Made by a program: the position numbers and the translations under genes. Positions 7,471-42,191 of a DNA stretch of 64,000 bases are shown here, piece by piece (within the stretch, counting starts at the first letter, position 1; each line of letters opens with the position of its first letter). The DNA comes from Caldifarciminota bacterium (GTDB taxonomy: Bacteria > Hydrothermota > Tepidihabitantia > Tepidihabitantales > Tepidihabitantaceae), in the NCBI GenBank assembly GCA_026418295.1, contig JAOABP010000006.1:65024-129023 (forward strand). The letters are read 5' to 3'. The notes under the pieces were generated by a model. That model did not search any database. It was not told the DNA's origin and worked only from the letters and a program-made list of their open reading frames with translations.

Positions 7471-8577
7471 TTAATGCCGCCGGACCTTACTGCCGAACTC
7501 CACCAGTTCGCGGAAGCCCTTCGGGTCGAACGCGGAAGCGATTGCGGTTTCGTAGGTAACCTTGCCCGCCCGATACAGCTCTGCCAGATAGGCATCAAAT
7601 GTAATACTGCCTTCTGAGGAGCCGGTCTGAATTGCGGAGTACAGGTGTTCAATTTTGCGTTCGCGGATCAGGTTGCGCACAGCGGGAGTGGCAATCATGA
7701 TTTCATAACAGCCGATTCTGCCCTTGCCTTCCGCCCGCAGGAGCAGACGCTGGGAGAAGACCGCCAGCAGCGAGATTGAGAACTGGATCCGGATCTGGTC
7801 ACGAATTTCCGGCGGGAAGATGTCGATGAAGCGGGTAACCGTTTCCGGGGCATTGGTGGTATGCAGAGTGCCGATCACCAGGTGCCCGGATTCCGCTGCC
7901 CAGATGGTGGCTTCAGCGGTTGCCAGATCACGGATCTCGGCAACGAGAATGACATTCGGGTTGGAACGCAACCCTTTCATAATCGCTTCACGGAAACTGG
8001 ATACATCAACGCCAACTTCGCGCTGGGTTACCAGTCCCTTTTTGTGGTCGTGGACGAATTCGATCGGGTCTTCGATCGTGAGCACATGGCGCGGGCTTTC
8101 CAGAATGTAATCAACAAAGGTTGCCTGCGTGGTGGTTTTACCCATTCCGGTCGGCCCGGTAACGAGGATCAGTCCGTGGGGCCGGTCGAGGAGTGATTTG
8201 ATCCGGGGGATAAGGTGGGTTGGAACAAAGAGCTCTTCAAAGGACAGAATACGGCGGGGGATGAGTCGCAGTGCCAGTCCGAAATAACCCTTCTGCTTGT
8301 AGACCGCAACCCGGAAGCGAGCCATGTTCTTGAAGTTGAGAGCGAAGTCGCCGCCACCGCCGTTGTCAATCTGGGCACGGAGGTGGCGCAAATCCTTGGT
8401 AGCGATGTTCTTGAAGCTCTCGGTTTTGTCCGGGGTCAGGACCGGGCAGTGTTCGATTGGCTGGAGTAACCCGTCGACGCGGAGGGTTGGCGGACGTCCG
8501 ACTGTTAAATGAAGGTCAGAGGCGTTGCGACGAATACACTCGGCCAAGAGTGACTCAAAATATTCTTCGTCAGACAT
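7471..8577 (-). CDS. pilT: Type IV pilus retraction ATPase (PilT/PilU family)
   Basis: 368 residues. PilT-type hexameric ATPase that powers pilus retraction at the inner membrane. The N domain has NASDLHLTVGRPPTLRVDG. Walker A is GPTGMGKTTT (141-150, with Met where Ser is usual), the Asp box TIEDPIEFVH follows, Walker B is NVILVAEIRD, and the His box is GHLVIGTLHTTNA. The C-terminal AVRNLIRERK matches the AIRNLIRE retraction motif of PilT, and the protein ends with TFDAYLAELYRAGKVTYE. It could also be PilU. No other pilus genes are in the window. It has its own leaderless promoter and converges with the valS operon. Confidence 0.9.
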   Translation of the reverse strand: MSDEEYFESLLAECIRRNASDLHLTVGRPPTLRVDGLLQPIEHCPVLTPDKTESFKNIATKDLRHLRAQIDNGGGGDFALNFKNMARFRVAVYKQKGYFGLALRLIPRRILSFEELFVPTHLIPRIKSLLDRPHGLILVTGPTGMGKTTTQATFVDYILESPRHVLTIEDPIEFVHDHKKGLVTQREVGVDVSSFREAIMKGLRSNPNVILVAEIRDLATAEATIWAAESGHLVIGTLHTTNAPETVTRFIDIFPPEIRDQIRIQFSISLLAVFSQRLLLRAEGKGRIGCYEIMIATPAVRNLIRERKIEHLYSAIQTGSSEGSITFDAYLAELYRAGKVTYETAIASAFDPKGFRELVEFGSKVRRH

Positions 8578-8585
8578 CAGTTTGT

Positions 8586-8613
8586 ATTATAACCCCCGGT
8601 TTTATGCTGTCAA
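8586..8613 (-). promoter_or_regulatory. Leaderless promoter of pilT
   Basis: Reverse strand TTGACA (8613-8608), 16 bp, TATAAT (8591-8586), both perfect consensus. The predicted transcription start at 8579 leaves a 2-nt leader before the ATG at 8577. Confidence 0.85.
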
Positions 8614-8638
8614 GCGGTTCAGGTCCTGATGTTGGGGT

Positions 8639-10762
8639 TCAGATGCCGGAAATCAGCCCGGTCAGTTTGAAGCCCAGTGACCAGCGGAAGGCAAGACGGT
8701 TTTCTCCGGGTTCAGGGGCGCTTTTCCAGAAGGGAAAGTCAGCATAGAGAGGTCCGAGTTTCAGCCTGATACCGGCATCAAAGACCGGTTTCAGTGACCG
8801 CAGCTGGAGTGTGTCGGCGACATTGCCGAAATCGATGAAGGGCTGAATTGCGGAAAGGGGAAAGCGCCATGCGGTCCGGGGCAGGAGGTGGATGTTCACA
8901 CCCCAGCCAAACCTGCCGGAGCGGTAAAGTCCATAATATCCCCGGCAGTTGGCATCACCGTCATAGTGCCAGTGTTCCTGGCCGGATGCCATACCTTCAT
9001 AAGCCCAGGAGACCGGTTCTTCCGGAGTGTAGCTCAGCCCGCCGGAGAGATAGAATTTTTCCTGCAGCGGAACCAAACCGGCAACAGCACCCGCAAAGAT
9101 GCGGATTGAAACGGGCAGAAGATTTGCCGGGGTGATGGTGATGTTTTCCACCAGACTCGCTCTGGTGTATGTGTATTGAGAAAGGAGCGGTTTCAGGCCC
9201 TGTGCGCATGTCAGTTCGTGCTGAACCGCAAGCACCGGCGTTTTGTGCGTGCGATAGAGCCGGGATCTGATTTCGGCAATCCGCGCCCGGTTCCAGGCAC
9301 GCGGGTCTCTGCCGGTGGTGTCCAGGAGCTCATAGAGACGATAGCCGAGTTGAATTTCGTTGCGGGGCAGGCGGAAGGGTCTGCTGAATTCCGATGTCAG
9401 GTAGAGCTTGATACCCCGATCGCGAAAGGAGTTGTCGCCCGCAAGGTAGAGCCGGAGCCGGACCGGATAAAACAAAAGCGGTGTCTGGTAGCTGATGCCG
9501 GTGTGCCAGTCCGATTTTTTCGAGGCGTAATTCTGAATCAGAGTCCAGTTATGGGCGCCCCGCACCGGACCGGCATCAATGAATCTGCGTCCCTGGAACC
9601 AGATACCGGGCTGAAACCCCCGGTAGTTGTCATACCAGAACCAGGGTCCGTAAAACAGCTGGTAGGCTTCAAAATCGGGCAGAGCAAAAAGGAATCCGGT
9701 TCTGAGCTGACGGGGACAGATGTTGTTCCAGCGGTCCGGTTCCAGAACTGATGTGTCCGGATCCAGAATCATCCGGCGGACTTTTTTTACAGCGGGAATT
9801 GAAATGGTTGCTGAGTGGTTCAGCAGGACGGTGTCAATCCGGACCGTCCGGTCGGTAAATTCCGTTTTTATCCGGACCGGCAGGTTCAGCGGATAGCGGG
9901 CAGAGAGGTCAATATGCAGGTTCTGCCCCTGATGGCGCAGACGGCAAATTTTCAGATCGTTTCTCCCGTCCTGTTTAAAGAGCGTATTGATCAGGACTTC
10001 CTGTTTCGGTCCCGCGATTGCGGTCAGACAGGCAAGAAAGGCGGGCAGTCCGGCAGAACCGGTATTATTCAAGTAACGCTGACGGAACTGACGGATGGTG
10101 GAATCCATCACAGCGGTGCCCAGCCTTTTTTCCAGTGCCTTCAAAAGCAGGGCGGTCTGAGCGCGGAGGACCGCATCGGTGAGAAACGGTCCCGTATCGG
10201 GCTGAGGTTCGGTAACAGGAAAGGTGAGGTTGTTGGTGGCGGCAAGGTAATAATAAACCCGGTGGAGGTAGTGTTCTGAGAGACCGGAGATAAAGGCAGA
10301 GACGCCGGGGAGGTCGATGAGATTGCTGGTTCCGTAGACCGTTTCCAGATAACGGTTTGTCGCATAGGCAGGAAGTCCGTATAAAAGCAGGGGGTCAGAG
10401 AATCGCCCGGCAGCAAACCAGTAACGGGCAATCTCCTGTGCCAGCTCACGTTCCAGGAGTCGGGTAAAGGGAACAGGCGGTGAATTAACAGCAATCTGGT
10501 GTCCGCCAGCGCCAGAAGAGTATTCCGGATTATCAGTGATGATAAGCGCGCCCGAAGAATCGGGGGGCGGACCGAACCAGGAGGAAAACAGGCTGCAGAT
10601 GTTCCGGACTTCAGAAGCAATTCTGGGTTCGTCGGGTTTGAGCCGGCTGGAAAGAATTATTTTTATCGGCGGGGCGCAGACAGCTGATGGAAATAACCGG
10701 CTGATGTTTAACCCGGCCAAGAAGATTATAATAACTGGGCGAATCGGGAACTGGTTCTTCAT
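8639..10762 (-). CDS. Outer-membrane barrel protein with inactive M1-peptidase-like domain
   Basis: 707 residues. A signal peptide (hydrophobic about 9-30) leads to an N-terminal domain with LAQEIARYWF (108-117) followed by DPLLLYGLPAYATNRYL. This lines up with the M1 aminopeptidase pattern H-E-x-x-H-x-W-F ... W-L-x-E-G-[FL]-A-x-Y, but both His ligands (Q109, R113) and the downstream Glu ligand are lost. From about residue 330 onward, alternating aromatic strands (FYGPWFWYDNYRGFQPGIWF, many Y/W/R) and a terminal strand LGFKLTGLISGI suggest a beta barrel of the surface-antigen type. The start overlaps the regulator upstream by 4 nt. Function unknown. Confidence 0.55.
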   Translation of the reverse strand: MKNQFPIRPVIIIFLAGLNISRLFPSAVCAPPIKIILSSRLKPDEPRIASEVRNICSLFSSWFGPPPDSSGALIITDNPEYSSGAGGHQIAVNSPPVPFTRLLERELAQEIARYWFAAGRFSDPLLLYGLPAYATNRYLETVYGTSNLIDLPGVSAFISGLSEHYLHRVYYYLAATNNLTFPVTEPQPDTGPFLTDAVLRAQTALLLKALEKRLGTAVMDSTIRQFRQRYLNNTGSAGLPAFLACLTAIAGPKQEVLINTLFKQDGRNDLKICRLRHQGQNLHIDLSARYPLNLPVRIKTEFTDRTVRIDTVLLNHSATISIPAVKKVRRMILDPDTSVLEPDRWNNICPRQLRTGFLFALPDFEAYQLFYGPWFWYDNYRGFQPGIWFQGRRFIDAGPVRGAHNWTLIQNYASKKSDWHTGISYQTPLLFYPVRLRLYLAGDNSFRDRGIKLYLTSEFSRPFRLPRNEIQLGYRLYELLDTTGRDPRAWNRARIAEIRSRLYRTHKTPVLAVQHELTCAQGLKPLLSQYTYTRASLVENITITPANLLPVSIRIFAGAVAGLVPLQEKFYLSGGLSYTPEEPVSWAYEGMASGQEHWHYDGDANCRGYYGLYRSGRFGWGVNIHLLPRTAWRFPLSAIQPFIDFGNVADTLQLRSLKPVFDAGIRLKLGPLYADFPFWKSAPEPGENRLAFRWSLGFKLTGLISGI

Positions 10763-11406
10763 TTACCGGCTTCAAATACCTCAAGGCAGATACTCAACAG
10801 ACGGCGCAGGAGTCCGGGTTCGAGACCCTGGCGGGCAGTGAGCTCTGTCAGATGTTCCAGCTGAGGGTTCGGTGATTCTTTCGGGAAATCTGTCATAATC
10901 AGATGACAGACTGAGCGGATATAGGTGAAGATGGCGCGCCAGCTGGCAGGAGAAATGTTTTGATTTATCAGCTGGTTGCGGGTCCGTTCAAGCGCCTGGT
11001 GCACGAGCTGCCAGAATTTTTCCCGGGAAAGGGCGGAGGCTGGTGTCAGAACTGACAGGGCAGGAGCAGGCACGATAACAGATTCAGAAGCTGAGGGTTT
11101 TGCGGTTAAGATCCTGCCTTCCTGCTGTTCCTCCTGGCCGCCACTTTCCAGCCTGATTTCAGTAATCACATCGGCAATATCCTGCCAGCCGGCATTGCAG
11201 GCATGGAGATATCCGGTTATCGTGCGGAGTGTGGGGTTGGGTACAAGTCCTTTTTCCAGCCTTAAGATATACTTATATCCGTGAGTGGGGTTGAGCCCGA
11301 GGATTTCCGCCAGTTTCATCTGGGAAATACCGGCAGCAAGGCGTAACTCCCTGAGCCTTGAGCCCAGCGCAGCAAGCCCTTCAAGGCGTGATTTTCTTTT
11401 AGCCAT
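10759..11406 (-). CDS. XRE-type helix-turn-helix regulator
   Basis: 215 residues. The N terminus (about 10-75) is a helix-turn-helix of the XRE class: LRELRLAAGISQMKLAEILG, then YKYILRLEKGLVPNPTLRTI, matching S-Q-x-x-L-A-x-x-x-G and the x-x-x-L-E-x-G-x-x-x-P-x-x-x-T-L pattern. The rest is helical with a Pro/Ala/Ser-rich linker near residues 95-125 and no recognised ligand domain. It probably controls itself and the barrel-protein gene that overlaps its stop by 4 nt. The leaderless promoter sits directly after the terminator of the C25-like gene. Confidence 0.8.
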   Translation of the reverse strand: MAKRKSRLEGLAALGSRLRELRLAAGISQMKLAEILGLNPTHGYKYILRLEKGLVPNPTLRTITGYLHACNAGWQDIADVITEIRLESGGQEEQQEGRILTAKPSASESVIVPAPALSVLTPASALSREKFWQLVHQALERTRNQLINQNISPASWRAIFTYIRSVCHLIMTDFPKESPNPQLEHLTELTARQGLEPGLLRRLLSICLEVFEAGK

Positions 11407-29890: not shown

Positions 29891-30400
29891 ATGATACAGG
29901 TTTACACGGGCGATGGCAAGGGTAAGACGACCGCGGCGTTCGGGCTGGCAATGCGCGCCCTTGGTCATGGCTGGCGGGTGCTGGTGGTGCAGTTTATGAA
30001 GGGGGATGATCAGTATGGTGAGGTCCGGACAGCACAGCGATTAGCCAATCTGGAGGTGCGGCAGTTCGGGCTTAAGACCTTTGTTCAGCGGGGTAATCCG
30101 GGTGCGGATGATGTCCGGCTTGCCCAAAATGGACTTGAGTTCGCCCGGAAGGCGATCCAGTCTGGGAACTACCAGCTGGTGATTCTGGATGAGCTCAACT
30201 GTGCGGTGGATTACGGACTGGTGGCGTTGACCGAGGTAATCAGATTGGTTCAGGAGTGTCCAGCCGGGGTAGAGCTGGTGATTACCGGCAGGAATGCGAA
30301 GCCGGAGCTGATTGAGCTGGCAGATCTGGTGAGCGAGGTCAGGGAGATCAAACACCCGTATCAGAAGGGTATTGTCAATCGTGTTGGAATCGACCGTTGA
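29891..30400 (+). CDS. cobA: Cob(I)alamin adenosyltransferase (CobA/BtuR type)
   Basis: 169 residues. MIQVYTGDGKGKTTAAFGLA contains the P-loop variant G-D-G-K-G-K-T-T of CobA/CobO enzymes, which make adenosylcobalamin from cob(I)alamin and ATP. Further motifs are MRALGHGWRVLVVQFMKG, YQLVILDELNCAVDYGLV and ELVITGRNAKPELIELADLV, all in family order. Its place directly before a MeaB GTPase and a B12-dependent mutase shows its job: supplying or repairing the cofactor of that mutase. It ends inside the start region of the meaB-like gene (29-nt overlap if the TTG at 30372 is used). Confidence 0.93.
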   Translation: MIQVYTGDGKGKTTAAFGLAMRALGHGWRVLVVQFMKGDDQYGEVRTAQRLANLEVRQFGLKTFVQRGNPGADDVRLAQNGLEFARKAIQSGNYQLVILDELNCAVDYGLVALTEVIRLVQECPAGVELVITGRNAKPELIELADLVSEVREIKHPYQKGIVNRVGIDR

Positions 30401-31343
30401 GGAGTTACTGAGGCGATTTGCCCGGGGTGACCGGCGTGCCTGCGGTCAGGTAATTTCTCTGGTCGAGGATGAGGCTGCAGAGGCAAAGCCGATTTTGAAT
30501 AAACTCTATCCGCTGATGGGCAGGGCGTATCGGGTGGGGGTTACCGGTCCGCCCGGAGCGGGTAAGAGTACGCTGGTAGAGAAGCTTGCCAGGCATTTGC
30601 GAGAGTATGATTACCGGGTGGGAATTGTGGCAGTTGATCCGAGTTCTCCATTTTCCGGCGGTGCGGTTCTGGGGGACCGGGTGCGGATGGCGGCACTCTT
30701 TACCGATCCCGGAGTGTATATCCGTTCAATGGCAACCCGGGGCAGTCTGGGCGGACTGGCTCGACGCACGCGGGAGGTGTGCGATATTCTGGATGCGTTC
30801 GGCTGTGACTATATCCTGATTGAAACCGTAGGGGTAGGGCAGATGGAGCTGGATATTGCGGAAGCTGCAGATTCTACGGTTGTGGTGCTGGTGCCCGAAT
30901 CCGGGGATTCAATTCAGGCGCTGAAGGCAGGATTGATGGAGATCGGGGAGATTTTCTGCGTCAACAAGTGTGACCGGGAGGGGGCGGACCGGATGGTGCT
31001 TGAGATTCAGACGATGCTGGAGCTGCGACCGAAAAATGATTCCTGGATACCGCCGGTGGTGAAAACTGCTGCCATTTCGGGGCTGGGGATTGAGGAACTT
31101 TATGAAAGAATTTCTGCTCACCGCCGGTATCTGGAAACCAGCAGTATCCTTGAGGAGCGACGGCGCCGGGCGGTCAGAACGGAGATCGAACGCCGGCTCA
31201 GCGAGAAGCTCCAGAGCTGGCTCTGGCGCCGGGACGGTTTTAAGGAACGGGTGGAGGAACTGGTGGAGGCGGTGATGACCCGTCGGGTTTCGCCCTATGA
31301 GGCGGTGGACCTGCTGTTTAAGGAAAGGGGGTTTGATGAGTGA
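30372..31343 (+). CDS. meaB: MeaB-type G-protein chaperone of B12-dependent acyl-CoA mutase
   Basis: 323 residues from TTG at 30372; GTG 30381 or TTG 30384 are alternatives, since no start has an ideal ribosome site. GTPase of the G3E/MeaB family, which gates cofactor delivery to acyl-CoA mutases. Walker A is [18 protein letters not shown], then [20 protein letters not shown], the switch region [29 protein letters not shown], and the guanine-binding N-K-C-D near residue 198. A C-terminal helical dimerisation arm follows. It overlaps the mutase large subunit by 8 nt. If the mutase is an isobutyryl-CoA mutase, this is its MeaI-like partner. Confidence 0.93.
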
Positions 31344-32988
31344 ACTGGAGCGGATTCAGAAGGAACGGGAAAGGTGGGAAGGGTGTGTGAACAAGGGGGA
31401 ACCGGAGCGGTTTGTGACCGTTTCCGGTCTGCCTGTGGATATCATCTATACACCAGCCGACCTGCCGGGGTTTGATTATCTGCGGGATCTGGGTTTTCCC
31501 GGCGAGTATCCGTTTACCCGTGGTATCCGGCACAACATGTACCGGGGTCGGCTCTGGACAATGCGTCAGTTTTCCGGATTCGGCACCGCCCGGGATACCA
31601 ATGCCCGCTACAAGTTTCTGCTCGCCCATGGCGAGACCGGGCTTTCAGTGGCATTTGATTTTCCCACGCTCTACGGACGGGATTCGGATGATCCGATGGC
31701 GCGGGGTGAGGTGGGAAAATGCGGAGTGGCGGTGTCTTCGCTTGAGGATATGGAGACGCTTTTTGACGGTATTCCGCTGGGCGAGGTGTCGACATCAATG
31801 ACAATCAACGGCCCGGCAGCGGTGCTGTGGGCGTTCTATATCGTTACCGCAGAGAAGCAGGGGGTATCAAGCGAGAAACTGCGGGGGACGATTCAGAATG
31901 ACATTCTAAAGGAGTATATTGCCCAGAAGTCCTGGCTGTTTCCGCCCGAGCCGTCGATGCGGATTATTACCGATATCATGGCGTTCGGTGCCCGACATGT
32001 GCCGAAATGGAATACGATTTCCATCTCCGGATATCACATCCGTGAGGCTGGTTCCACTGCAGCGCAGGAGCTGGCGTTCACCCTGAAGGACGGAATGACC
32101 TATGTTGAGGCGGGGATCAGGGCAGGACTGGATGTGGATGAGTTCGCACCCCGGCTCTCATTTTTCTTTAATTCCCACCTTGATTTCTTTGAGGAGATCG
32201 CCAAGTTCCGGGCGGCAAGGAGAATCTGGGCCCGGGAGATGCGGGAAACATTCAAGGCGAAAAAACCGGAGTCCTGGCTCTTGCGCTTCCATACTCAGAC
32301 TGCGGGTTGCACCCTGACCGCACAGCAGCCGGAGAATAATATCGTCCGGACCGCATTCCAGGCGCTGGCAGCAGTACTGGGCGGAACCCAGAGCCTGCAT
32401 ACCAATTCAATGGATGAAACCTGGGCACTGCCGACCGAGAAGGCGGTGCTGATTGCACTCCGCACCCAGCAGCTGATTGCTGAGGAGACCGGGGTGATCA
32501 ATGTCATTGATCCGCTGGGAGGCTCTTACTATGTGGAGGCGCTGACCAACCGGCTGGAAGAGCAGGCATACGAATATTTTGCGAAAATTGACGCCCTGGG
32601 CGGTATGATCAAGGCGATTGAGCACGGTTATCCACAGCGCGAGATCGCTGAGGCGGCTTATCGTTATCAGAAGGCGGTTGACGAAGGAAGAAGAACGGTT
32701 GTCGGGGTGAACAAGTATGTGCTGGAAGGGGAACGGCTCGAGATTCCGATTCTCAAGATCGACCCCCGGGTGGAGCAGGAGCAGTGTGAAAGGCTGAGGC
32801 GGTTGCGACAGCGCCGGGATAATGCGAAGGTACGGCGCACCCTTGATGATCTGAAAGCCGCCTGTGCGGGTAAAGATAATGTGATGTATCCGATTCTGGA
32901 GGCGGTGCGCGCCTATGCCACACTCGGGGAAATCTGTGGAGCAATGAAGGAGGTCTTCGGCACCTATGCCGAACCACCGATGTTTTAG
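31336..32988 (+). CDS. icmA: B12-dependent acyl-CoA mutase large subunit, isobutyryl-CoA mutase-like
   Basis: 550 residues, a TIM-barrel substrate-binding subunit without its own B12 domain. Family motifs include [68 protein letters not shown] and [11 protein letters not shown]. At the two positions that set substrate choice in Propionibacterium methylmalonyl-CoA mutase, Tyr89 and Arg207, this protein has Phe79 and Gln197. These are the residues reported for isobutyryl-CoA mutase (Phe80, Gln198), so isobutyryl/n-butyryl-CoA is a better guess than methylmalonyl-CoA. The ATG overlaps meaB by 8 nt after AAGGGGG; the B12 subunit follows 9 nt later. A general annotation would be methylmalonyl-CoA mutase family. 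Confidence 0.85.
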
Positions 32989-32997
32989 GAGGAGAAA

Positions 32998-33396
32998 ATG
33001 AAGAAACTGAGAATTCTCATTGCCAAGCCCGGGCTGGATGGTCATGACCGGGGCGCAAAAGTGGTTGCCCGGGCGCTGCGTGATGCCGGGTTTGAGGTGA
33101 TCTATACCGGATTGCACCAGACACCGGAGATGATTGCGGAGACGGCAATTCAGGAGGATGTGGATGCAGTCGGACTTTCAATTCTCTCCGGCGCCCATAT
33201 GACGCTGATTCCGGAGGTGATGCGGTTGCTGAAGGAAAAGGGTGCAGGCGATATTCTCGTTTTCGGCGGGGGCATAATTCCCAGGGAGGATATGGAGGAG
33301 CTCTACAGGATGGGCTGTGGCCGGCTGTTCGGCCCCGGGACGCCGACCCAGGAGATTGTTGATTATCTGAAGGAGAAATTTCCGGATCGGGTGTAA
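32998..33396 (+). CDS. icmB: B12-binding small subunit of acyl-CoA mutase
   Basis: 132 residues. A stand-alone cobalamin-binding Rossmann-like domain: [20 protein letters not shown] carries the D-x-H-x-x-G motif whose His replaces the lower ligand of the cofactor. [14 protein letters not shown] gives S-x-L and [13 protein letters not shown] the G-G motif. The length is like IcmB (about 136). GGAG precedes the ATG at good distance, and it follows the large subunit by 9 nt. The two subunits should form a heterotetramer that isomerises acyl-CoA carbon skeletons. It is the last gene of the operon; no terminator hairpin is evident before the next promoter. Confidence 0.93.
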
Positions 33397-34658: not shown

Positions 34659-35681
34659 TTAATCGGTGACTATCAGTTTTCCGTTGAACTCAGCTCCGTT
34701 AACCTTAAGCCGGTAGAGGTAGATGCCGCGGGGGAGCCGGCTGCTGACCGCAATCCGGCTGTCACCTGCTGTTGTGCCATTTTGAGTATGGGATATCCGG
34801 CCGTCAACAGTATAGATGAAAAGCTGATATTCCGCTCCAGTGTGGGCGGTGACGGCAAAAACGGGCCGGCCTGAAGCCGGATTGACAAGAGGCCGTACCT
34901 GTGCCGGCTCACCGTCAGCCGGTTTTCCTTCCCGAATGCCGACGAGGTCCAGAATCGCAACTTCTGCTCCCTGGTATGCAGGATAGGAGGAGTCGGATGG
35001 TACCATGGTGGTACTCTGAGCATAAACCACAATTTTGCAGCGCTGTTCATTCCAGGTGCTGGCAATCGTAAATGGTTGAATTACCGAATCAATACCACCT
35101 GCAGGAACGGTAATTACGGTTCCGGACTGGTTCGGGATGTAATCCCGGCAGACATGGTTGTGCCACTGGTCACCGTTAGGAGCGGAGTAGTAAATTGAGT
35201 CTTCGGTGATTACCACCGAGACGCGCATCGTCAGGTCAGCAGTAGAGTCGTTCTGGATCAGCGCCTTGATAGTTCCGGTGCGGGTAGACTGGTTGTAATC
35301 GCCGGTCAGGGTGATCTGAACCGGGGTCGGAATGCCGATCTGCGCCGCAACATAGCTTGCCCAGAGGTTGTAGTTGTAACCGCGCTGCCGGCCGTCTACC
35401 CAGAGCCAGGGAGTCGCATAAGAACCGCTGTAGGGTCCGGGGTACATGAACCATTTACCGCGGCCTTCGGCAGAGTAAAGCGGATATGAGGATGATACAT
35501 GCCACTCGACCGCGACAACATAACCGGCATAATCGTAGGTGATCTGGTCAACTGCCCGACTGGCAGGTGCGCAGCTGGCTCAACCTTCCTGGTAGGCTTC
35601 TTCCAGGACGACGATTCGCTGGTAACCCACTGCAAGAGTTGCAGTGAGCACCAGGGAAAGGACGATCAGGTGCTTGAACAC
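34659..35681 (-). CDS. Putative selenoprotein: exported Omp28/thioredoxin-like protein (UxxC) with sorting domain
   Basis: 340 residues if UGA at 35582-35580 (residue 34) is read as selenocysteine. GTG at 35681 lies 5 nt after AAAGGAGG and opens a signal peptide (MFKHLIVLSLVLTATLAVG). Next come RIVVLEEAYQEG, Sec, then ASCAPASRAVDQ: the VxLEEF...WCxxC-like region of Omp28-type thioredoxin-fold proteins with Sec in the first Cys place (U-A-S-C). The fold continues VVAVEWHVSS and a YATPWLWVDG strand; then a CARDB-like domain and a C-terminal sorting domain (LFIYTVDGRISH, LPRGIYLYRLKV). A hairpin follows the UGA. Without recoding the product would stop after 33 residues. It has a consensus promoter. 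Confidence 0.82.
35552..35566 (-). promoter_or_regulatory. Candidate bacterial SECIS hairpin (UASC gene)
   Basis: Stem CTGCC, loop AGTCG, stem GGCAG, inside the coding region. The stem starts 14 nt and the loop 19 nt after the UGA, with G as second loop base, as expected of bacterial SECIS elements. Read by eye; no folding was run. Confidence 0.6.
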
Positions 35682-35699
35682 GATTGCCTCCTTTTTTAT

Positions 35700-35727
35700 A
35701 TTATAGCTGTCGCCTTTAAGGTGTCAA
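35700..35727 (-). promoter_or_regulatory. Consensus promoter of the exported selenoprotein gene
   Basis: Reverse strand TTGACA (35727-35722), 16 bp, TATAAT (35705-35700), both perfect. Transcription should start near 35693, giving a 12-nt leader that is almost only the AAGGAGG ribosome site. The -35 overlaps the end of the MFS gene. Confidence 0.85.
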
Positions 35728-37091
35728 TCCTGATTTCTGATGCCCAGTGCCTGCAGCAGGACATCCTTGCCGGCATTCAGGCGCCACAGTGCCAGATTGG
35801 TCAGTTCTCGAATTGTATGCCGCACCGGCTTGCTGCCCGGTTCCCGGACCTTCAGCAGTAGTGGCAGGCAGGCAAACCGGGCGATGCCGGCAGCAAGGAA
35901 CATGACGTCGTAATTGTAAAAATCGATGCCGAGGATCTTCAGATGGAAGCTGGAAATCAGCTGGGCGACGGTCCCGGCAACCAGGGAGGCAATAAAGGCA
36001 CCGAGACCGGTGACGACACTGTAGATCGCAAAGTAGCTTTCCTTGCGGGCAGGGTTATCGGCAAGGTCCAGCAGCAGGTTCCAGAGTCCGAGGCTGGCTC
36101 CGGTCCAGACCACACCGTTGAGGACGCCATCAATCCAGATTGGCAGGCGGAAGCGGGGAGTGGCGAAGAGCCAGAGAAAAGGCATTATTCCCACGAGGGC
36201 GAAGTTGAGGACAGTAACCGGTCGGGAGCCGAATCGGTCGATCGCCCGGCCCCAGAATAGTTGGAACAGTACGCCGATCACTCCGCCAATCATGGAATAG
36301 ATTGCAACTTCGGTAAAGCTGAAACGGAGATTTTTCAGGAGATGAACGAGGTAAAATGGTGAAGCGAGCGTGCCGGTGAGAAACCAGATTGCGAGGAAGA
36401 TTGTCAGCCGCCGGAACTGCGGTTCCTGAAGCGGTCCGAAAAGAATTTCCCGGAATGCAGGCGCCGGCAGGAGTTTCGGTTCGGGTTCCGGCTGCCGGCG
36501 CAGGAGCAGTGTTGAGACCATGCCGAACAGTACTGCGAGTGTAAATGCCAGCAGGTAACCGGTGGTTTCATAACCCCGGGCTTTCAGATAGTCCATGCCC
36601 CGGCCCGCTCCAAATGCAACCAGCACACCGCTGACATTGAGAATTGCGTTCCGGACACCGAAAAAACGACCGCGGCGTTCCTCTGGCACAAGGTCACTGA
36701 TCCAGGATGTCCAGACCGTGCCGGCGATTGCCATCAGCACGGCGGAGACGCCGACAATCACCAGAAAGAGTTCAATCCGCAGCCGGAAGCGGAGCAGCAG
36801 GGTGAGGACGATCAGTACATAGACTGACCGGCCGGTACCTGCGGTCCAGAGAACCAGCGGTTTTCGGGCACCGACCCAGCGCACCAAGTAGCCGGCGAGA
36901 AAGCTGAAACCACTGACCAGCGCCGGGATGGCTGACAGAAGCGCAATCTGAAATGAATTTGCTCCGAGGTGCAGTGCCAAGCCGGCTAAAAACATGCCGC
37001 CGGCAAGGGTTGTATAGAGAGTGGCAAAGGTGCCTTCAACGATCGAGATTTTCAGCCCTTTTTCGATTTCGCAGGTGGAGAGCCGGGTCAA
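35724..37091 (-). CDS. MFS-family transporter
   Basis: 455 residues with about twelve hydrophobic helices in two halves. The first half has the MFS A-like loop GARKPLVLWTAGTGR and a SWISDLVPEERRGRFFGVRN segment (D-x-x-P-x-x-x-R-G-x-x-x-G) typical of this superfamily. The second half repeats it as LFWGRAIDRFGSRPVTVLNF. The substrate is unknown. Its ATG overlaps lipA by 4 nt (ATGA), so the two are translationally coupled. It is the last gene of the minus-strand redox operon before the separate selenoprotein unit. Confidence 0.85.
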   Translation of the reverse strand: MTRLSTCEIEKGLKISIVEGTFATLYTTLAGGMFLAGLALHLGANSFQIALLSAIPALVSGFSFLAGYLVRWVGARKPLVLWTAGTGRSVYVLIVLTLLLRFRLRIELFLVIVGVSAVLMAIAGTVWTSWISDLVPEERRGRFFGVRNAILNVSGVLVAFGAGRGMDYLKARGYETTGYLLAFTLAVLFGMVSTLLLRRQPEPEPKLLPAPAFREILFGPLQEPQFRRLTIFLAIWFLTGTLASPFYLVHLLKNLRFSFTEVAIYSMIGGVIGVLFQLFWGRAIDRFGSRPVTVLNFALVGIMPFLWLFATPRFRLPIWIDGVLNGVVWTGASLGLWNLLLDLADNPARKESYFAIYSVVTGLGAFIASLVAGTVAQLISSFHLKILGIDFYNYDVMFLAAGIARFACLPLLLKVREPGSKPVRHTIRELTNLALWRLNAGKDVLLQALGIRNQD

Positions 37092-37966
37092 ATCTGTGGA
37101 GGGACAGGGTTGATATCTGTTTTGAGCAGTTCCTCAGCGAGATATGAGCTTCGGACCAGCGGGGCAGCAATGGTTCGCGGGATGCCGATGGTGCGGGCAT
37201 GCGCTGACAGTTTCTGAAGTTCCTCTCTGGTGTAGTAACGAGCGACCGGCAGACAGCGCCGGTCCGGCTGGAGATACTGACCAATGGTCACAATATCACA
37301 TCCTGCTGATTTCAGGTCAGTGAGCGTCTGAATGACTTCCTCCTCGGTTTCTCCCAGTCCGACCATCAGCCCGCTTTTGGTTCTGATTGCCGGTGCCAGC
37401 CTTTTTGCCAGCTGGAGAGCCGAAAGCGAAAGGCGGTAATCTGCCCGGCGGTCGCGGACAGCAGGGGTCAGCCGTTCCACGGTTTCAAGGTTGTGGGCAA
37501 ACACATCCGGACCGGCATCAAGCACCTGCTGAATCAGCTCTCTTTTCCCCTGAAAATCCGGGACCAGCACTTCAACAGCAATTCCCGGATTTGATTTTTT
37601 CAGCAGCTGCACGGTGCGGGTAAAGATACCGGCACCAAGGTCAGGCAGGTCATCACGATCTACCGAAGTCAGGACGACATATTTAAGACCCAGCTCCAGA
37701 ATTGCGTCTGCCACCCGTTCGGGTTCAGAATTATCTACCTGACCGTGAGGGTTGCCGGTGGTAACGGCACAGAAGCGGCAGTGCCGGGTGCAGGTGTTAC
37801 CGAGAAGCAAAACTGTTGCCGTTCCCCGGTTCCAGCATTCAGCAAGGTTCGGACAGCGGGCCGAACTGCAGACCGTATTCAAGTTATATTTCCGGAGGAC
37901 CTGATTTACCCGGATAAATTCCGGTCCGGCGGGCAGCCGGAATCTGAGCCATTCGGGTTTACGCAC
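37088..37966 (-). CDS. lipA: Lipoyl synthase
   Basis: 292 residues, normal for LipA, a radical SAM enzyme that inserts two sulfurs into octanoyl groups on lipoyl domains. The auxiliary cluster motif CSSARCPNLAECW (C-x4-C-x5-C) is present, then NTCTRHCRFCAV (C-x3-C-x2-C) for the SAM cluster. VVLTSVDRDDLPDLGAG, NLETVERLTPAVRD, KSGLMVGLGET and the C-terminal R-S-S-Y are all family marks. It lies 1 nt after the stop of the NapH-like gene in the same operon. Its link with the thiol-redox genes may be through sulfur chemistry or only through operon economy. Confidence 0.96.
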   Translation of the reverse strand: MRKPEWLRFRLPAGPEFIRVNQVLRKYNLNTVCSSARCPNLAECWNRGTATVLLLGNTCTRHCRFCAVTTGNPHGQVDNSEPERVADAILELGLKYVVLTSVDRDDLPDLGAGIFTRTVQLLKKSNPGIAVEVLVPDFQGKRELIQQVLDAGPDVFAHNLETVERLTPAVRDRRADYRLSLSALQLAKRLAPAIRTKSGLMVGLGETEEEVIQTLTDLKSAGCDIVTIGQYLQPDRRCLPVARYYTREELQKLSAHARTIGIPRTIAAPLVRSSYLAEELLKTDINPVPPQI

Positions 37967-37967
37967 T

Positions 37968-39248
37968 TCAGAGAGTGATTTTCAACGATTTTGGCGGACA
38001 GTTCCAGACACACTCAAAACAGCGGATACATTCTGCCTGATTCGGGTCCTGAAACGGTTCGATGTCCACGGGACAGACCCGGCGGCAGGCTCCGCACTTG
38101 CTGCAGGTCTGTCCGTTCAGCTGCATCCGCATCATACTGGCTTTGTTAAACAGGGCATAAATCGCACCGATCGGACAGACCATGCGGCAGAAGGGGCGTT
38201 TAACCGTGATTGATGCCCAGAGGACGAATAAAAGGATGGCAACTTTCAGATAAAAGAGCCAGCCGACAAGTGCCCGCAGACCTTGGACCGGGTCCCAGAG
38301 CACAAGCGGGATACCCGCTTCCAGGGTGCCCTGAGGGCAAAGTTTGCAGAACCAGGGTTCGGCAGTGAAGTAGGCAGCGACGCCGGCAACGATGACCAGA
38401 AAGGCATATTTTAGGGCAGTCGCAGGAAAGTAAAGTTTAAGCCTGCCCTCCAGGAGCAGGACGGTTAAAACCGCAATCAGAATAAATAGGAGGCCGATTT
38501 CACCTCCGGCAAATGGGCCGAGTGTTGCCGATTTGCCGGTAAGGCTGATGATAAATCCGGCTGGGATGACGATGAACAGAGACCTTTTCCCACCGAGCAG
38601 GCTGAAGACAGCCATGCTGACTACGCCGGTTGCGATGCCGACGCTGGCTTCATGTTTGAATATGATTAGCAGACCCAGAACAATTCCCAGCAGCATGCCG
38701 GCCACCGAGAATCGCTGGGGCGGTGCGAGTTTTCCTCTGATCGTACCGTAGAGCAGCAATGCCATAAACGGCAGCCACCCGAATAACAGTCCTTTCCAGA
38801 TTGAAATTTTGATGAATGCGGCAAGCAGGATTACAGTCAGTATGCCGATTCCGGCAATAGTCAGAAAGGTAACCCAGCGGTTCAGTTTTGCCCGCGGTCC
38901 GATTTTAATCTTGTAAAGCAGGTCCTGCCACAGACCGAAAGGGCATATCCAGCCGCACGCCGCCCGGCCGACAAATGCGCCGATTATCATGAACAGTCCC
39001 AGAATCACCCAGGGCACATTCTGCCACCAGGCAACTCCTTTCATGCCGATGATCTGTTGAAATGAACCAAGCGGGCAGGCAAATACCGAAAGGGGACCAC
39101 CGTAACAGTTGAGTACGGGTTCAGGTACTGATTTGAGTATTCCGGAGTAAAGAACCTTATTCTGAAGATAGGCAAGAATATAACCGTTCAGGAGCACGGT
39201 GCCGATTATCTGACCGATGCGGTGCGGGGCAATGCGCCGTTTCACCAT
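37968..39248 (-). CDS. NapH/YccM-like membrane 4Fe-4S ferredoxin protein
   Basis: 426 residues. Several membrane helices are interleaved with Cys motifs on the cytoplasmic side: ACGWICPFGLWQDLLYK, WFCKLCPQGTLEAGIP and RPFCRMVCPIGAIYALF. At the C terminus are two ferredoxin-like clusters, CSKCGACRRVCPVDIEPF and CIRCFECVWNCPPKSL. This NapH-like layout passes electrons between the cytoplasm and the quinone pool or periplasmic thiols. An extra block of about six helices (about 130-270) is unusual. It starts 9 nt after the tiny ULGC selenoprotein gene, suggesting that it feeds electrons to that protein. lipA follows. Confidence 0.85.
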   Translation of the reverse strand: MVKRRIAPHRIGQIIGTVLLNGYILAYLQNKVLYSGILKSVPEPVLNCYGGPLSVFACPLGSFQQIIGMKGVAWWQNVPWVILGLFMIIGAFVGRAACGWICPFGLWQDLLYKIKIGPRAKLNRWVTFLTIAGIGILTVILLAAFIKISIWKGLLFGWLPFMALLLYGTIRGKLAPPQRFSVAGMLLGIVLGLLIIFKHEASVGIATGVVSMAVFSLLGGKRSLFIVIPAGFIISLTGKSATLGPFAGGEIGLLFILIAVLTVLLLEGRLKLYFPATALKYAFLVIVAGVAAYFTAEPWFCKLCPQGTLEAGIPLVLWDPVQGLRALVGWLFYLKVAILLFVLWASITVKRPFCRMVCPIGAIYALFNKASMMRMQLNGQTCSKCGACRRVCPVDIEPFQDPNQAECIRCFECVWNCPPKSLKITL

Positions 39249-39253
39249 TTTAC

Positions 39254-39270
39254 AGGTCTACCCGAGACCC
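39254..39270 (-). promoter_or_regulatory. Candidate bacterial SECIS hairpin (ULGC gene)
   Basis: Stem GGTCT, loop CGGGT, stem AGACC, with a further G-T pair outside. The loop starts 18 nt after the UGA and its second base is G. The hairpin spans the true TAG stop. Read by eye. Confidence 0.6.
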
Positions 39271-39395
39271 ATACAGCCAAGTCATATCTGGGAAGCAAAG
39301 CCGTGAATGATTGAGAGCATGCCCAGTCCGATGCCCAGCGCTGCGAGTGCGGTTCCGCAGATTGCCAGCAGGACAAAGATCAGTTTCCGCCTCAT
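39258..39395 (-). CDS. Putative selenoprotein: 45-residue membrane protein ending ULGCMGLG
   Basis: 45 residues with UGA at 39284-39282 (residue 38) read as selenocysteine, ending at TAG. One membrane helix (LIFVLLAICGTALAALGIG) is followed by HGFASQI, Sec, then LGCMGLG. It resembles the small CD1871A-family CXXC proteins as I recall them: one helix and a C-terminal I-C-x-x-C-x-G-x-G, next to NapH-like and TlpA-like genes. Here Sec takes the place of the first Cys. The ATG overlaps the stop of the outer membrane protein gene (ATGA), and the NapH-like gene starts 9 nt after the TAG. A hairpin follows the UGA. Without recoding a 37-residue peptide lacking the redox motif would result. Confidence 0.75.
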
Positions 39396-40852
39396 ATCCG
39401 GCTGATCAGTTGCAGTTTCATACCCCGGAATGGGGCTTCATACCGGCACACACCACCGGAGCAGGTATAACCACCTTTTTCTGCCCCGATGCGCAGCCGC
39501 AGAACATTCCGTTCATTGATATTATAGACAGTTTCAAACACAGGCCAGGAGGTCTGGTTGTCGTAGCGCTTGAGTGAATCTTTGTCCACACCCTGCCAGC
39601 CGATGGTAAAAAGCCATTTTTCTCCCAGTCCGTAACTTACAGAAATCAGCGGTTCGTGATAACGCCAGTTACTGCCATGAGTGGTATCAGTGGGCAGTTC
39701 GGTTACCCAGCCCAGTTCCGCCTCGAGAGTAAAGGTGTGGGGTCCGGTGAGGTAGTTCAGCAGGATTGCTGGACGGTCGGTGATCCGTTCGTAAGTTCCC
39801 AGTTCGATGTTTTTCTGAAGCATATGGTTGAATTTGAGTTCAAATGTCCAGTTCGTTCCCAGTGATTGCCGGGTTTTAAATTCTCCCTCAAGCACACCGG
39901 CGCTGGTATCATCATGGACAAAAAGACGGGCCAAATCGGCTTCAATGTAGAGTCCGTTAGGTATCGTTCCTGAGGCCTGAACTCCGAATCCCTGTTCATC
40001 CACGCCCCGGTTAATTGAGACACCGGATTTAATCGGAGTGGGGGGATCGTTGTAGTGATAAGTGCCCGGAGGAAAACCCAGCCGGAGGTAGTTTACATAC
40101 TGTGCGAGGATGGAAAAACCGGCAAGTGCGGTGCTCAGATTCAGGATGTACCCTGTGCCGGTTTCCCGGCCGCCGATTCCCGGTTTTGTTCCCAGCCGCC
40201 AGGCAAATTCCGCTCCGGCAGAGACAGGTCCGATATCCAGCCGGCAGTCACCTCCAAAGAGCTCGGTGAAAGCCCGTGCGGTCGGATCGACCTCCCGGTT
40301 AATGCGGACATAACGGGTGCCCAGACCGAAAAACTGGATCGGTCGAATGGTCAGATCAGCACCCAGTACCTGGTCAGTGGTATCCAGTTCGTTCATTATC
40401 TTGTAGGTGTTTTCCTGAAAAAAGACATCCCGGAGCCTGCCGCCGAGTAGTGTTACCTCACTGCTCAGTGGCAGTTTAAGTCTGCCGAACAGGCCGTGGA
40501 GACTCTTGTAATGCCGGAAGTCATCATCGGCACCACTGCTTAATGTCAGCCCCTGGCCAAAGGTGGTATAGAATCTTCCAAGCCGGACTTCAAGTTCTTC
40601 CGGATTATAACCGATTGCGTAGTCCAGCAGATGAAGTGGTTTGCGCACTGACGGTCCGTGCTTGGACGGTTCAAACCACAGCACGCCCAGTTCGGCATCG
40701 AAATCGCTATAACGGGCACTGAGCTCGAGCTTATCTTCATAATGGGTTGCCCAGTCCTGCTGGTAAGCCCAGAATTCTGCCCGGTTGACTCCCTGGATTG
40801 TCAGGCTGGCACCGAAGACCGAGCTCAGAACCAATAAACTGCCTATGCCCAC
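39392..40852 (-). CDS. DUF6029-like outer membrane beta-barrel protein
   Basis: 486 residues. A short signal peptide (GIGSLLVLSSVFGASL) leads to LTIQGVNRAEFWAYQ and then a long run of amphipathic strands with periodic aromatic and charged residues. Examples are VRLGRFYTTFGQGLTLSSG, FGLGTRYVRINRE, FSILAQYVNYLRLGF and WTFELKFNHMLQKN. The pattern, with a short G-R-F-Y-x-x-F-G-x-G-L motif, fits DUF6029 family proteins of the FCB group. Near the C terminus a TCSGGVCRYE pair of Cys may form a disulfide. GTG at 40852 is 10 nt after the TlpA gene stop. In the operon it may act as the outer membrane partner of the exported redox proteins; that is inference. Confidence 0.7.
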   Translation of the reverse strand: MGIGSLLVLSSVFGASLTIQGVNRAEFWAYQQDWATHYEDKLELSARYSDFDAELGVLWFEPSKHGPSVRKPLHLLDYAIGYNPEELEVRLGRFYTTFGQGLTLSSGADDDFRHYKSLHGLFGRLKLPLSSEVTLLGGRLRDVFFQENTYKIMNELDTTDQVLGADLTIRPIQFFGLGTRYVRINREVDPTARAFTELFGGDCRLDIGPVSAGAEFAWRLGTKPGIGGRETGTGYILNLSTALAGFSILAQYVNYLRLGFPPGTYHYNDPPTPIKSGVSINRGVDEQGFGVQASGTIPNGLYIEADLARLFVHDDTSAGVLEGEFKTRQSLGTNWTFELKFNHMLQKNIELGTYERITDRPAILLNYLTGPHTFTLEAELGWVTELPTDTTHGSNWRYHEPLISVSYGLGEKWLFTIGWQGVDKDSLKRYDNQTSWPVFETVYNINERNVLRLRIGAEKGGYTCSGGVCRYEAPFRGMKLQLISRI

Positions 40853-40862
40853 TTTTACCCGC

Positions 40863-41399
40863 CTATTTTTCCTGAGGCGGTTGCTCAGGCGGAACCGAGT
40901 CCCGGGGCGGCAGCCATTTTACCATTTCCTCGGCAATCCGTTTTTCGTCGCCCTTCTTATAGCCGATGTGGGTGTAGACAATTTCGCCGTTCATGTTGAT
41001 GAGGTAGGCGGTGGGCTTGATGATGATGTTGTATGCCTTTTTTACCCTCTGCTGCTGATCGAGCAGGACGATATAGGGCCATTTCTTGGCGCGAACAAAT
41101 GCCCGGACCCGGTTTTCGTCTGCCGGCTTGTCCACTGAGAGGGCGACAATCTGCAGTCCCCGGTCTTTCAATGAATCATATACGGGCAGCAGGGCGTCGA
41201 GTTCGGCAATGCAGTTGACACAGGGAAGATCCCAGCATTCGAGATAAACCGGGCCATGTTTCAGGAGATCGTGCAGTGTTACTTCATTGCCATTGACATC
41301 TCTGAGAGTGAAATCCGGTGCCGGTTCGTACTTTTTCCCGGCACCGAAGGCGGCAGCAAAGAACAGAAAGGCAACTACCAAAAGAAGGGCTTTTTTCAT
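40863..41399 (-). CDS. TlpA/redoxin-family thioredoxin-like protein
   Basis: 178 residues. Signal peptide MKKALLLVVAFLFFAAAFGAG, then a thioredoxin fold of TlpA/AhpC-TSA type: APDFTLRDVNGNEVTLHDLL, VYLECWDLPCVNCIAELDAL with the C-x2-C redox site (C-V-N-C), LQIVALSVDKPADENRV and KPTAYLINMNGEIVYTHIGY. A Pro-rich tail closes the protein. It probably reduces or exchanges disulfides in the periplasm. The ATG at 41399 follows AGGAGG and overlaps the stop of the UAYC lipoprotein gene (TGATG). Unlike its neighbour it keeps Cys in both redox positions. Confidence 0.9.
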   Translation of the reverse strand: MKKALLLVVAFLFFAAAFGAGKKYEPAPDFTLRDVNGNEVTLHDLLKHGPVYLECWDLPCVNCIAELDALLPVYDSLKDRGLQIVALSVDKPADENRVRAFVRAKKWPYIVLLDQQQRVKKAYNIIIKPTAYLINMNGEIVYTHIGYKKGDEKRIAEEMVKWLPPRDSVPPEQPPQEK

Positions 41400-42184
41400 C
41401 AATCCTCCTGGTTTATCCGCCATTTGACAGCGGTTTGAAGCACAGCGCGGCTGCCAAAATTCTGGACCGTTACCGCAATGCCGGTGCGGTTCGGGTTCCA
41501 GTCCGGAACCGGTGTGCTGAGAACGGTATCATAATCCTGCCCGAACCGGAGACGGAGCGGGATACCGAAGCTGTCACCAATGACGGTGCGGACGGTCATT
41601 GGGGAATAGAAGGTATCGGCTCTCAGAATGGAATAATATGGTATACTGTCTTCAAAGACGATTGCCACCAGACGCAGAGTTGTAATCGTGTCGGCGGAGG
41701 AATCGGTGGGAGTGATTACGAGTCGCACTGTGAGCCGGGAGGAGTCGATGGCGGCGCTGTCAATTCTCATTTCCAGCATCGTTTTTCTTGTCCGGGCAGC
41801 GTCAATCATATCCCGGTAAACCGGATAAAAGGAGTCGGGCAGTGTAATCTGAGGCGAGCGGCTGGTGCCGTCAAAAAATGCCAGGGGGCGTTCCCCACCC
41901 GCACCGTACCACTCAGCCCGTGCCTTGCCTGCCGGTGAGGAAAGTTGAGGCAGAAGCTCCGAATCGTAGTAAATCACAAAAGCCATTGAATCGCCATAGA
42001 TTTCTCTGAGGCTGTCCAGCGCCCGCGCCGCGGACGCACAGTAGGCTCATTCATCGAGTGGAGTAGAAAACAGTTCCACGAGCACAACCCGGTTTGCCTC
42101 ACGCTCAATCAGGGGCGCATCGGAGCAGGATAAAAGCAGACCGCCGGCAGCCAGCACGGTGAATATCATAAGCGAGCGCTTCAT
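41399..42184 (-). CDS. Putative selenoprotein: Omp28/thioredoxin-like lipoprotein (UxxC)
   Basis: 261 residues with UGA at 42049-42047 (residue 46) read as selenocysteine. The signal peptide MKRSLMIFTVLAAGGLLLSC has a clear lipobox (L-L-S-C, Cys20). Then NRVVLVELFSTPLDE, Sec, AYCASAARALDSL gives U-A-Y-C at the place of W-C-x-x-C in Omp28-like proteins; MAFVIYYDSELL and RPLAFFDGTS continue the fold. A CARDB-like domain follows (VTVQNFGSRAVLQTAVKWR). A hairpin follows the UGA. The second of two tandem ATGs is chosen because transcription should start at 42185. First gene of the redox operon, coupled to the TlpA gene. The visible UGA-free frame (41986-41399) would otherwise look like an orphan without start signals. 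Confidence 0.82.
42014..42035 (-). promoter_or_regulatory. Candidate bacterial SECIS hairpin (UAYC gene)
   Basis: Stem GTCC-GCG, loop GCGCGGG, stem CGC-(T)-GGAC with a single bulged T. The loop starts 19 nt after the UGA and begins with G. It is GC-rich and less canonical than the other two, lacking U in the loop. Read by eye. Confidence 0.5.
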
Positions 42185-42191
42185 CATATCA

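Follow-up and report, generated by a model that had tools for sequence, protein, structure and literature searches.

A conserved gene array of Stahlbacteria with three predicted selenoproteins and a putative extracytoplasmic thiol-redox pathway

Do genes interrupted by UGA within a few kilobases of one another encode a set of selenoproteins, and if so, what could such proteins do together? The question is raised by a stretch of 64,000 nucleotides from a Caldifarciminota bacterium (hereafter the window), in which three in-frame UGAs, all on the minus strand and each opening a UxxC motif, lie within 7.5 kb. The initial annotation had reported three same-strand UxxC genes in this region, and all three UGAs are confirmed by coordinates and translation. 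The features are the following (evidence in brackets):

41399..42187, minus strand: Omp28a, predicted exported lipoprotein-like thioredoxin-fold selenoprotein, 262 aa, Sec47 in UAYC (translation, alignment, AlphaFold2, Foldseek)
42017..42049, minus strand: Omp28a Sec UGA (42049-42047) with SECIS stem-loop (covariation in alignment A5, RNAalifold)
40863..41423, minus strand: TlpA/ResA-like exported thioredoxin, CVNC (Pfam, ResA model, ResA structures, operon conservation)
39392..40861, minus strand: DUF6029 outer-membrane-barrel-like protein (PF19494, 58 bits; kept between TlpA and the small gene)
39258..39395, minus strand: small membrane selenoprotein, 45 aa, ULGC (UGA/Cys column, CD1871A relatives before NapH)
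39254..39284, minus strand: small-gene Sec UGA (39284-39282) with SECIS stem-loop (covariation in alignment A4)
37968..39248, minus strand: NapH-like membrane polyferredoxin (Pfam Fer4_5, TIGR02163, relatives, invariant Cys)
37088..37966, minus strand: LipA lipoyl synthase (TIGR00510, 360 bits; adjacency mainly in family f1)
35724..37091, minus strand: MFS transporter (PF07690, 117 bits)
34659..35681, minus strand: Omp28b, exported Omp28-family selenoprotein, 340 aa, UASC, Por secretion tail (PF11551, Por_Secre_tail)
35544..35582, minus strand: Omp28b Sec UGA (35582-35580) with probable SECIS (alignment A6)

These eight genes lie head to tail on one strand in the order Omp28a, TlpA, DUF6029, small gene, NapH, LipA, MFS and Omp28b, mostly overlapping or nearly abutting: Omp28a and TlpA overlap, DUF6029 and the small gene share an ATGA, the small-gene stop is followed by NapH after 9 nt, and 42 nt separate MFS from Omp28b, which starts with a GTG at 35681, preceded by a ribosome-binding site, and stops at 34659. 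The operon proposed at the outset (two UGA genes with TlpA, the barrel and NapH, followed by lipA and MFS) stands, but Omp28b, which had been set apart from it, is because of this compact arrangement probably the last gene of the same array. The set Omp28a, TlpA/ResA, DUF6029, small UxxC protein and NapH-like polyferredoxin is kept across the class (candidate phylum WOR-3/Stahlbacteria); the TlpA neighbour is kept in the operon, and the adjacency of LipA is found mainly within family f1. No CcdA-type membrane domain occurs among the genes of the array, and when regions outside ordinary ORFs were scanned for additional UxxC read-through genes, the small gene alone was credible. Elsewhere in the window (29891-33396, plus strand), ORF translations show cobalamin adenosyltransferase-like, MeaB-like and methylmalonyl-CoA mutase-like large and B12-binding subunit genes in a row.

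As the initial annotation held, UGA is a normal stop elsewhere: TGA ends 23 of the 47 ordinary ORFs of the window and is their commonest stop, so the codon is not reassigned. Omp28a itself holds both a Sec UGA and an ordinary terminal UGA (41401-41399), a strong hairpin following the Sec UGA only. The source genome (1.80 Mb, 96.7% complete), searched family by family, contains SelB, a tRNA-Sec (74 bits against a gathering cut-off of 47; reported by ARAGORN as tRNA-SeC with anticodon TCA), SelA (492 bits) and SelD (334 bits), the latter with an in-frame UGA of its own in the motif CAGUASK. All four components are thus present, including selB and tRNA-Sec, the pair whose absence had been regarded as fatal to the Sec reading. 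A further SelD-like match on contig 15 (L011), considered as a SelD beside a second small gene, was rejected; it looks ThiL-like. Within the class, SelB was found in 46 of 61 genomes; G013 and G015 carry UGA without a SelB match, but their assemblies are fragmented (90% complete in 360 contigs and 88% complete in 760 contigs, respectively). Homologues show Cys or UGA at the UGA columns and nothing else was seen there, as the Sec reading predicts. The chance that the UGAs are instead reassigned codons, sequencing errors or marks of decayed genes is negligible: besides the stop usage given above, the complete Sec machinery, a UGA held at one column over tens of genomes and covarying SECIS elements speak against such origins, which are refuted as far as sequence can refute them. 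That all three UGAs are selenocysteine codons is, on this comparative evidence, near certain.

More care is needed with the hairpins that had been described after each UGA. The description holds for the small gene and Omp28a, where the loop begins 18 nt after the UGA and has G among its first two bases, but the hairpin described for Omp28b is not the minimum-energy fold of the source sequence. Folded singly, none of the three sequences did better than its shuffled versions (z of +0.3 for the small gene, -0.6 for Omp28a and +0.4 for Omp28b), so that a hairpin alone would not be evidence, in contrast to comparative covariation. For the small gene, all cells (100%) of stem columns 15-20/26-31 are paired over 14 distinct sequences (A4), and column pair 18/28 appears as G-C seven times, C-G four times and U-A three times, with a covariation score reached by none of 500 shuffles. 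The 3' arm of this stem takes in two bases from the UAG stop together with the next four bases. Column 18 falls on the silent third position of a Gly codon, and its partner, column 28, directly follows the UAG, so that a constraint at the protein level cannot explain the covariation. The Omp28a element (stem columns 13-20/24-31, loop GGC; A5) is paired in 96.4% of cells with compensatory changes in five of eight pairs; here, too, 0 of 500 shuffles reach the covariation score, and RNAalifold recovers the same stem unprompted. The stem-loop of Omp28b (A6) is 87% paired with two of six pairs compensatory, one slid control equals its covariation score, and its register is shifted in the source copy, whose hairpin CUGCC/GGCAG has its loop 19 nt after the UGA. 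Judged from these alignments, the SECIS stems of Omp28a and the small gene have been kept through compensatory change, and the weaker Omp28b element is a probable SECIS.

The small protein (45 aa; MRRKLIFVLLAICGTALAALGIGLGMLSIIHGFASQIULGCMGLG) was found in 113 of 147 genomes of the phylum, and credible matches hold either no stop or a single TGA, with UGA or Cys at the same column; an alternation of these two at one column over 113 genomes is more than chance. In nearly every class locus read with enough flank, its gene lies directly upstream of NapH. Within the source organism's own family (18 genomes), UGA stands in 16 and Cys in the others; of the two non-UGA genomes, G008 has Cys and G007 has its only match on a contig other than that of its truncated NapH. 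A sister pair within one genus shows Cys in the member without a SelB match (G008) and UGA in the member with SelB (G012), and a second UGA group is formed by family f32 (G132-G134). Against NF040920, the CD1871A family, the source protein scores 12.7 bits, below the cut-off of 32; same-family orthologues score up to 27.0, a Sec form from Poribacteria 32.8 and Clostridia 60-63 bits. Because those orthologues reach 27.0 and the synteny is identical, we treat the source protein as a divergent CD1871A relative. The position directly before a NapH-like gene is common to the small protein and CD1871A members, this synteny coming from the present analysis and not from the NF040920 model. The TsoA model gave no match to the small protein.

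Every operon copy of Omp28a that was read has UGA, and Cys stands at this column in paralogues of the same family (RCVYCPY, L111-L114); positions C47/C50 are invariant in 15 aligned sequences (A2). The protein has no Pfam match and scores 17.9 bits against NF045500, short of the cut-off of 200. Its AlphaFold2 model (pLDDT 87) suggests a thioredoxin fold nearest to HBP35 of P. gingivalis, the best Foldseek match (5y1a; TMq 0.71, E 2.5e-10, 253 alignment columns), and also matches the Omp28 domain 2r2c. HBP35 has reported thioredoxin activity (PMC2907840) and is a substrate of the Por system (PMC2907840, PMC3120885). Omp28b matches PF11551 (Omp28) with 48.1 bits, above the gathering cut-off of 34.9, and NF045500 with 43.3 bits, below the curated cut-off of 200. 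One TGA is held by its matches in about 55 genomes; among the rows listed, genomes at least 90% complete and without a SelB match show no TGA, G013 excepted. For both Omp28 proteins Cys paralogues are known among the loci read; as with the small protein, the recurrence of UGA in Omp28a copies and of the single TGA in Omp28b matches is more than chance. The source genome also encodes a SprA-like type IX translocon homologue (contig C9:275860-281244, L221-L225; 478 bits summed in frame), and secretion of Omp28b to the surface therefore may be possible. This homologue lies in a phylum outside Bacteroidetes; many Omp28-type proteins here have Por secretion tails. Omp28-like proteins are expanded throughout the phylum, with at least 14 matches in the source genome, many with one in-frame TGA and including forms of about 600 residues; Stahlbacteria may have an unusually large exported selenoproteome.

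The NapH-like protein, a Pfam Fer4_5 match, carries Cys motifs in its membrane part and two C-terminal 4Fe-4S motifs. Its score against TIGR02163 (NapH/MauN) is 56.8 bits, with the cut-off of 213 not reached, and a fold search of its model against the PDB gave nothing significant. Relatives occur in 60 of 61 class genomes, and Cys 48, 58, 98, 102, 304, 354 and 358 together with the eight ferredoxin Cys are invariant across 28 homologues. The TlpA neighbour has a CxxC and an N-terminal hydrophobic export segment; it matches AhpC-TSA with 75 bits (Pfam), the ResA model with 82 bits (subfamily cut-off of 170 not reached) and ResA structures with E 1e-13.

The pair of small protein and NapH is found throughout WOR-3/Stahlbacteria. 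For a wider scan of named genomes NapH served as the query, the small-protein alignment (A7) being too diverse for contig scans; it reached Clostridia, Treponema and other Spirochaetes, Synergistia, Acidobacteria, Poribacteria, Aminicenantes and others. In about 56 of 80 loci, which come from many phyla, the gene immediately preceding NapH encodes a short protein with a CLxC(I/V)G(I/L)G-like end, a count that the filter may keep too low; 39 of the 80 have a TlpA-like thioredoxin gene no more than 2.5 kb away. The clostridial small proteins are CD1871A members by the curated cut-off. In the Poribacteria copy, UGA replaces the first Cys in a genome with SelB; this is an independent Sec form outside the source family. 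The same genome (G147; L229, L232) has both Sec and Cys copies of the CD1871A-like protein. Many small-NapH loci lack TlpA, DUF6029 and Omp28 proteins, which may therefore represent just one output among several. In the loci surveyed, MsrA/MsrB genes are not consistent neighbours. In L116 (G126, about 7500-11000), TrxB-like, Trx-like, TlpA, small CxxC and NapH genes follow in a row with no Omp28 or DUF6029 there. Relatives also have a second, all-Cys locus (L112 6879-12713, L114 6466-12300, L111 in part) with genes for a SAM methyltransferase-like protein, a CLSC small protein, Omp28-Cys (627 aa), Omp28a-Cys and an unknown secreted protein, as well as a SelD-like paralogue (GCAGKACQ) and a corrinoid-protein-like gene. 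In L112 and L114 the Cys small protein stands beside Omp28-Cys with no NapH near, and the locus suggests that it also works apart from NapH, perhaps in selenium/methyl metabolism.

Comparative genomics, then, shows that the UGAs encode Sec, that the genome has the means to make it, and that the genes are conserved as a set and linked. The locus probably encodes an extracytoplasmic thiol-redox pathway with three Sec proteins, in which an Fe-S transmembrane thiol-reducing relay serves exported thioredoxin-fold proteins; direction and partners of the electrons we infer. Cytoplasmic ferredoxin or the quinone pool would feed the [4Fe-4S] clusters of the NapH-like membrane protein, and from these, electrons would pass to the C-terminal UxxC pair of the one-helix small protein, a thiol/selenol exchange site that would convert them to thiol chemistry at the outer face. 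Recipients would be the TlpA/ResA protein and the two Omp28 proteins, Omp28a located at the outer membrane and Omp28b there or farther out; the TlpA and Omp28 proteins would in turn reduce disulfides in proteins of the envelope and surface or rearrange them, with Sec at the exchange sites speeding exchange or resisting over-oxidation. The extracytoplasmic thiol-redox reading, already put forward from the initial annotation, gains strength from the thioredoxin fold resembling Omp28/HBP35, from the kinship of the neighbour with ResA/TlpA, and from the persistence across phyla of the pair of small protein and NapH, often with a TlpA next to it.

Flow could also be opposite or different, the NapH-small pair taking electrons from exported thiols (DsbB-like oxidising or quinone-reducing) and thereby making disulfides. 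NapH of the nitrate reductase system is a quinol dehydrogenase subunit (this also is the name of NF007013), so that a quinone linkage is possible in either direction, and Omp28/thioredoxin folds can serve as oxidases or isomerases; TlpA/ResA/StoA relatives, however, are established reductants, the carriers are mostly anaerobes, and one relative has TrxB-like and Trx-like genes alongside, all of which makes such a flow quite improbable. It is likewise unlikely that the small U/CxxC protein is a structural Fe-S-cluster ligand subunit or an assembly/metal-delivery factor of NapH, with the exported thioredoxins being separate: its very short length and the tight pairing with NapH even without an adjacent thioredoxin gene would suit this role, but the ready Sec/Cys exchange, a CxxC spacing typical of thiol redox sites and the Cys form beside Omp28-Cys genes away from NapH do not.

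Compared with known systems, the proposed reducing relay shares with DsbD/CcdA/ScsB the transfer of reducing equivalents across the membrane to TlpA/ResA-type thioredoxins, but here an Fe-S polyferredoxin and a one-helix UxxC subunit replace the CcdA-type helices. As in NapH/MauN (TIGR02163), there are membrane CxxxCP motifs and two C-terminal 4Fe-4S motifs, whereas the source protein has the extra Cys motifs NCYxCP..CP and FCKxCP and no napA/napG neighbours were seen. HBP35/Omp28 of P. gingivalis likewise have a thioredoxin domain followed by a beta domain, but are Cys forms, and we know of no NapH partner for them. The prediction of Omp28-type Sec proteins dates from 2008, when they were named GOS_C (PMC2398784); the family is now NF045500 (PMC13188914 Table 1). 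The exported thioredoxin-like fold with UxxC and the Sec/Cys pairs are common to that family and the present proteins; here, in contrast, two divergent members stand in one array with a membrane electron-transfer pair, and no description of an operon for GOS_C was found in the literature. The CD1871A family (NF040920) resembles the small protein in length (about 45 aa), in one N-terminal hydrophobic helix, in the C-terminal CLxCxG(I/L) and, in Clostridia, in the gene position directly before NapH-like; it is named for CXXC, whereas the source copy has Sec for the first Cys. Neither a CD1871A-like Sec protein nor such an operon is in the 2026 catalogue of 119 families (PMC13188914). Tso and SAO operons also have three or more selenoprotein genes per operon, but of different families (PMC13188914). 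Open-access literature yielded no description of WOR-3 selenoproteins or of CD1871A or the combinations Omp28 + selenoprotein and NapH + TlpA, and no paper describing the TlpA-CD1871A-NapH module. The initial claim that no such system has been described was too strong, in that catalogues already contain GOS_C/NF045500 as well as the small protein in its Cys form (CD1871A); the protein families at the locus are known ones, one of them in a new Sec form, and their conserved association is new. What appears new is the CD1871A-like protein with Sec and the array of three Sec genes, and the proposed Fe-S route for electrons across the membrane, common in anaerobes, seems undescribed.

It should also be noted that gene calling with UGA as stop will truncate Omp28a, the small gene and Omp28b, and that Omp28-type selenoproteins (GOS_C) can share one array with a putative membrane electron source. 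More tentatively, and with somewhat less than even confidence, TlpA-CD1871A-NapH could be regarded as one more kind of transmembrane thiol reductase, so far unrecognised, that is Fe-S driven and occurs widely among anaerobes; Stahlbacteria would then have Sec at three successive stations (the membrane relay, the periplasmic/outer-membrane Omp28a, and Omp28b, possibly type IX-secreted to the cell surface), giving an extracellular selenium-based redox chain. The relay idea is testable now, since the small protein-NapH pair also occurs in cultured Clostridia and Treponema. If the proposed reading is true, a 45-residue membrane protein joins the list of selenoproteins, with Sec forms outside the source lineage too, and the means by which anaerobes might supply reductant beyond the membrane independently of the textbook system would become accessible to genetics.
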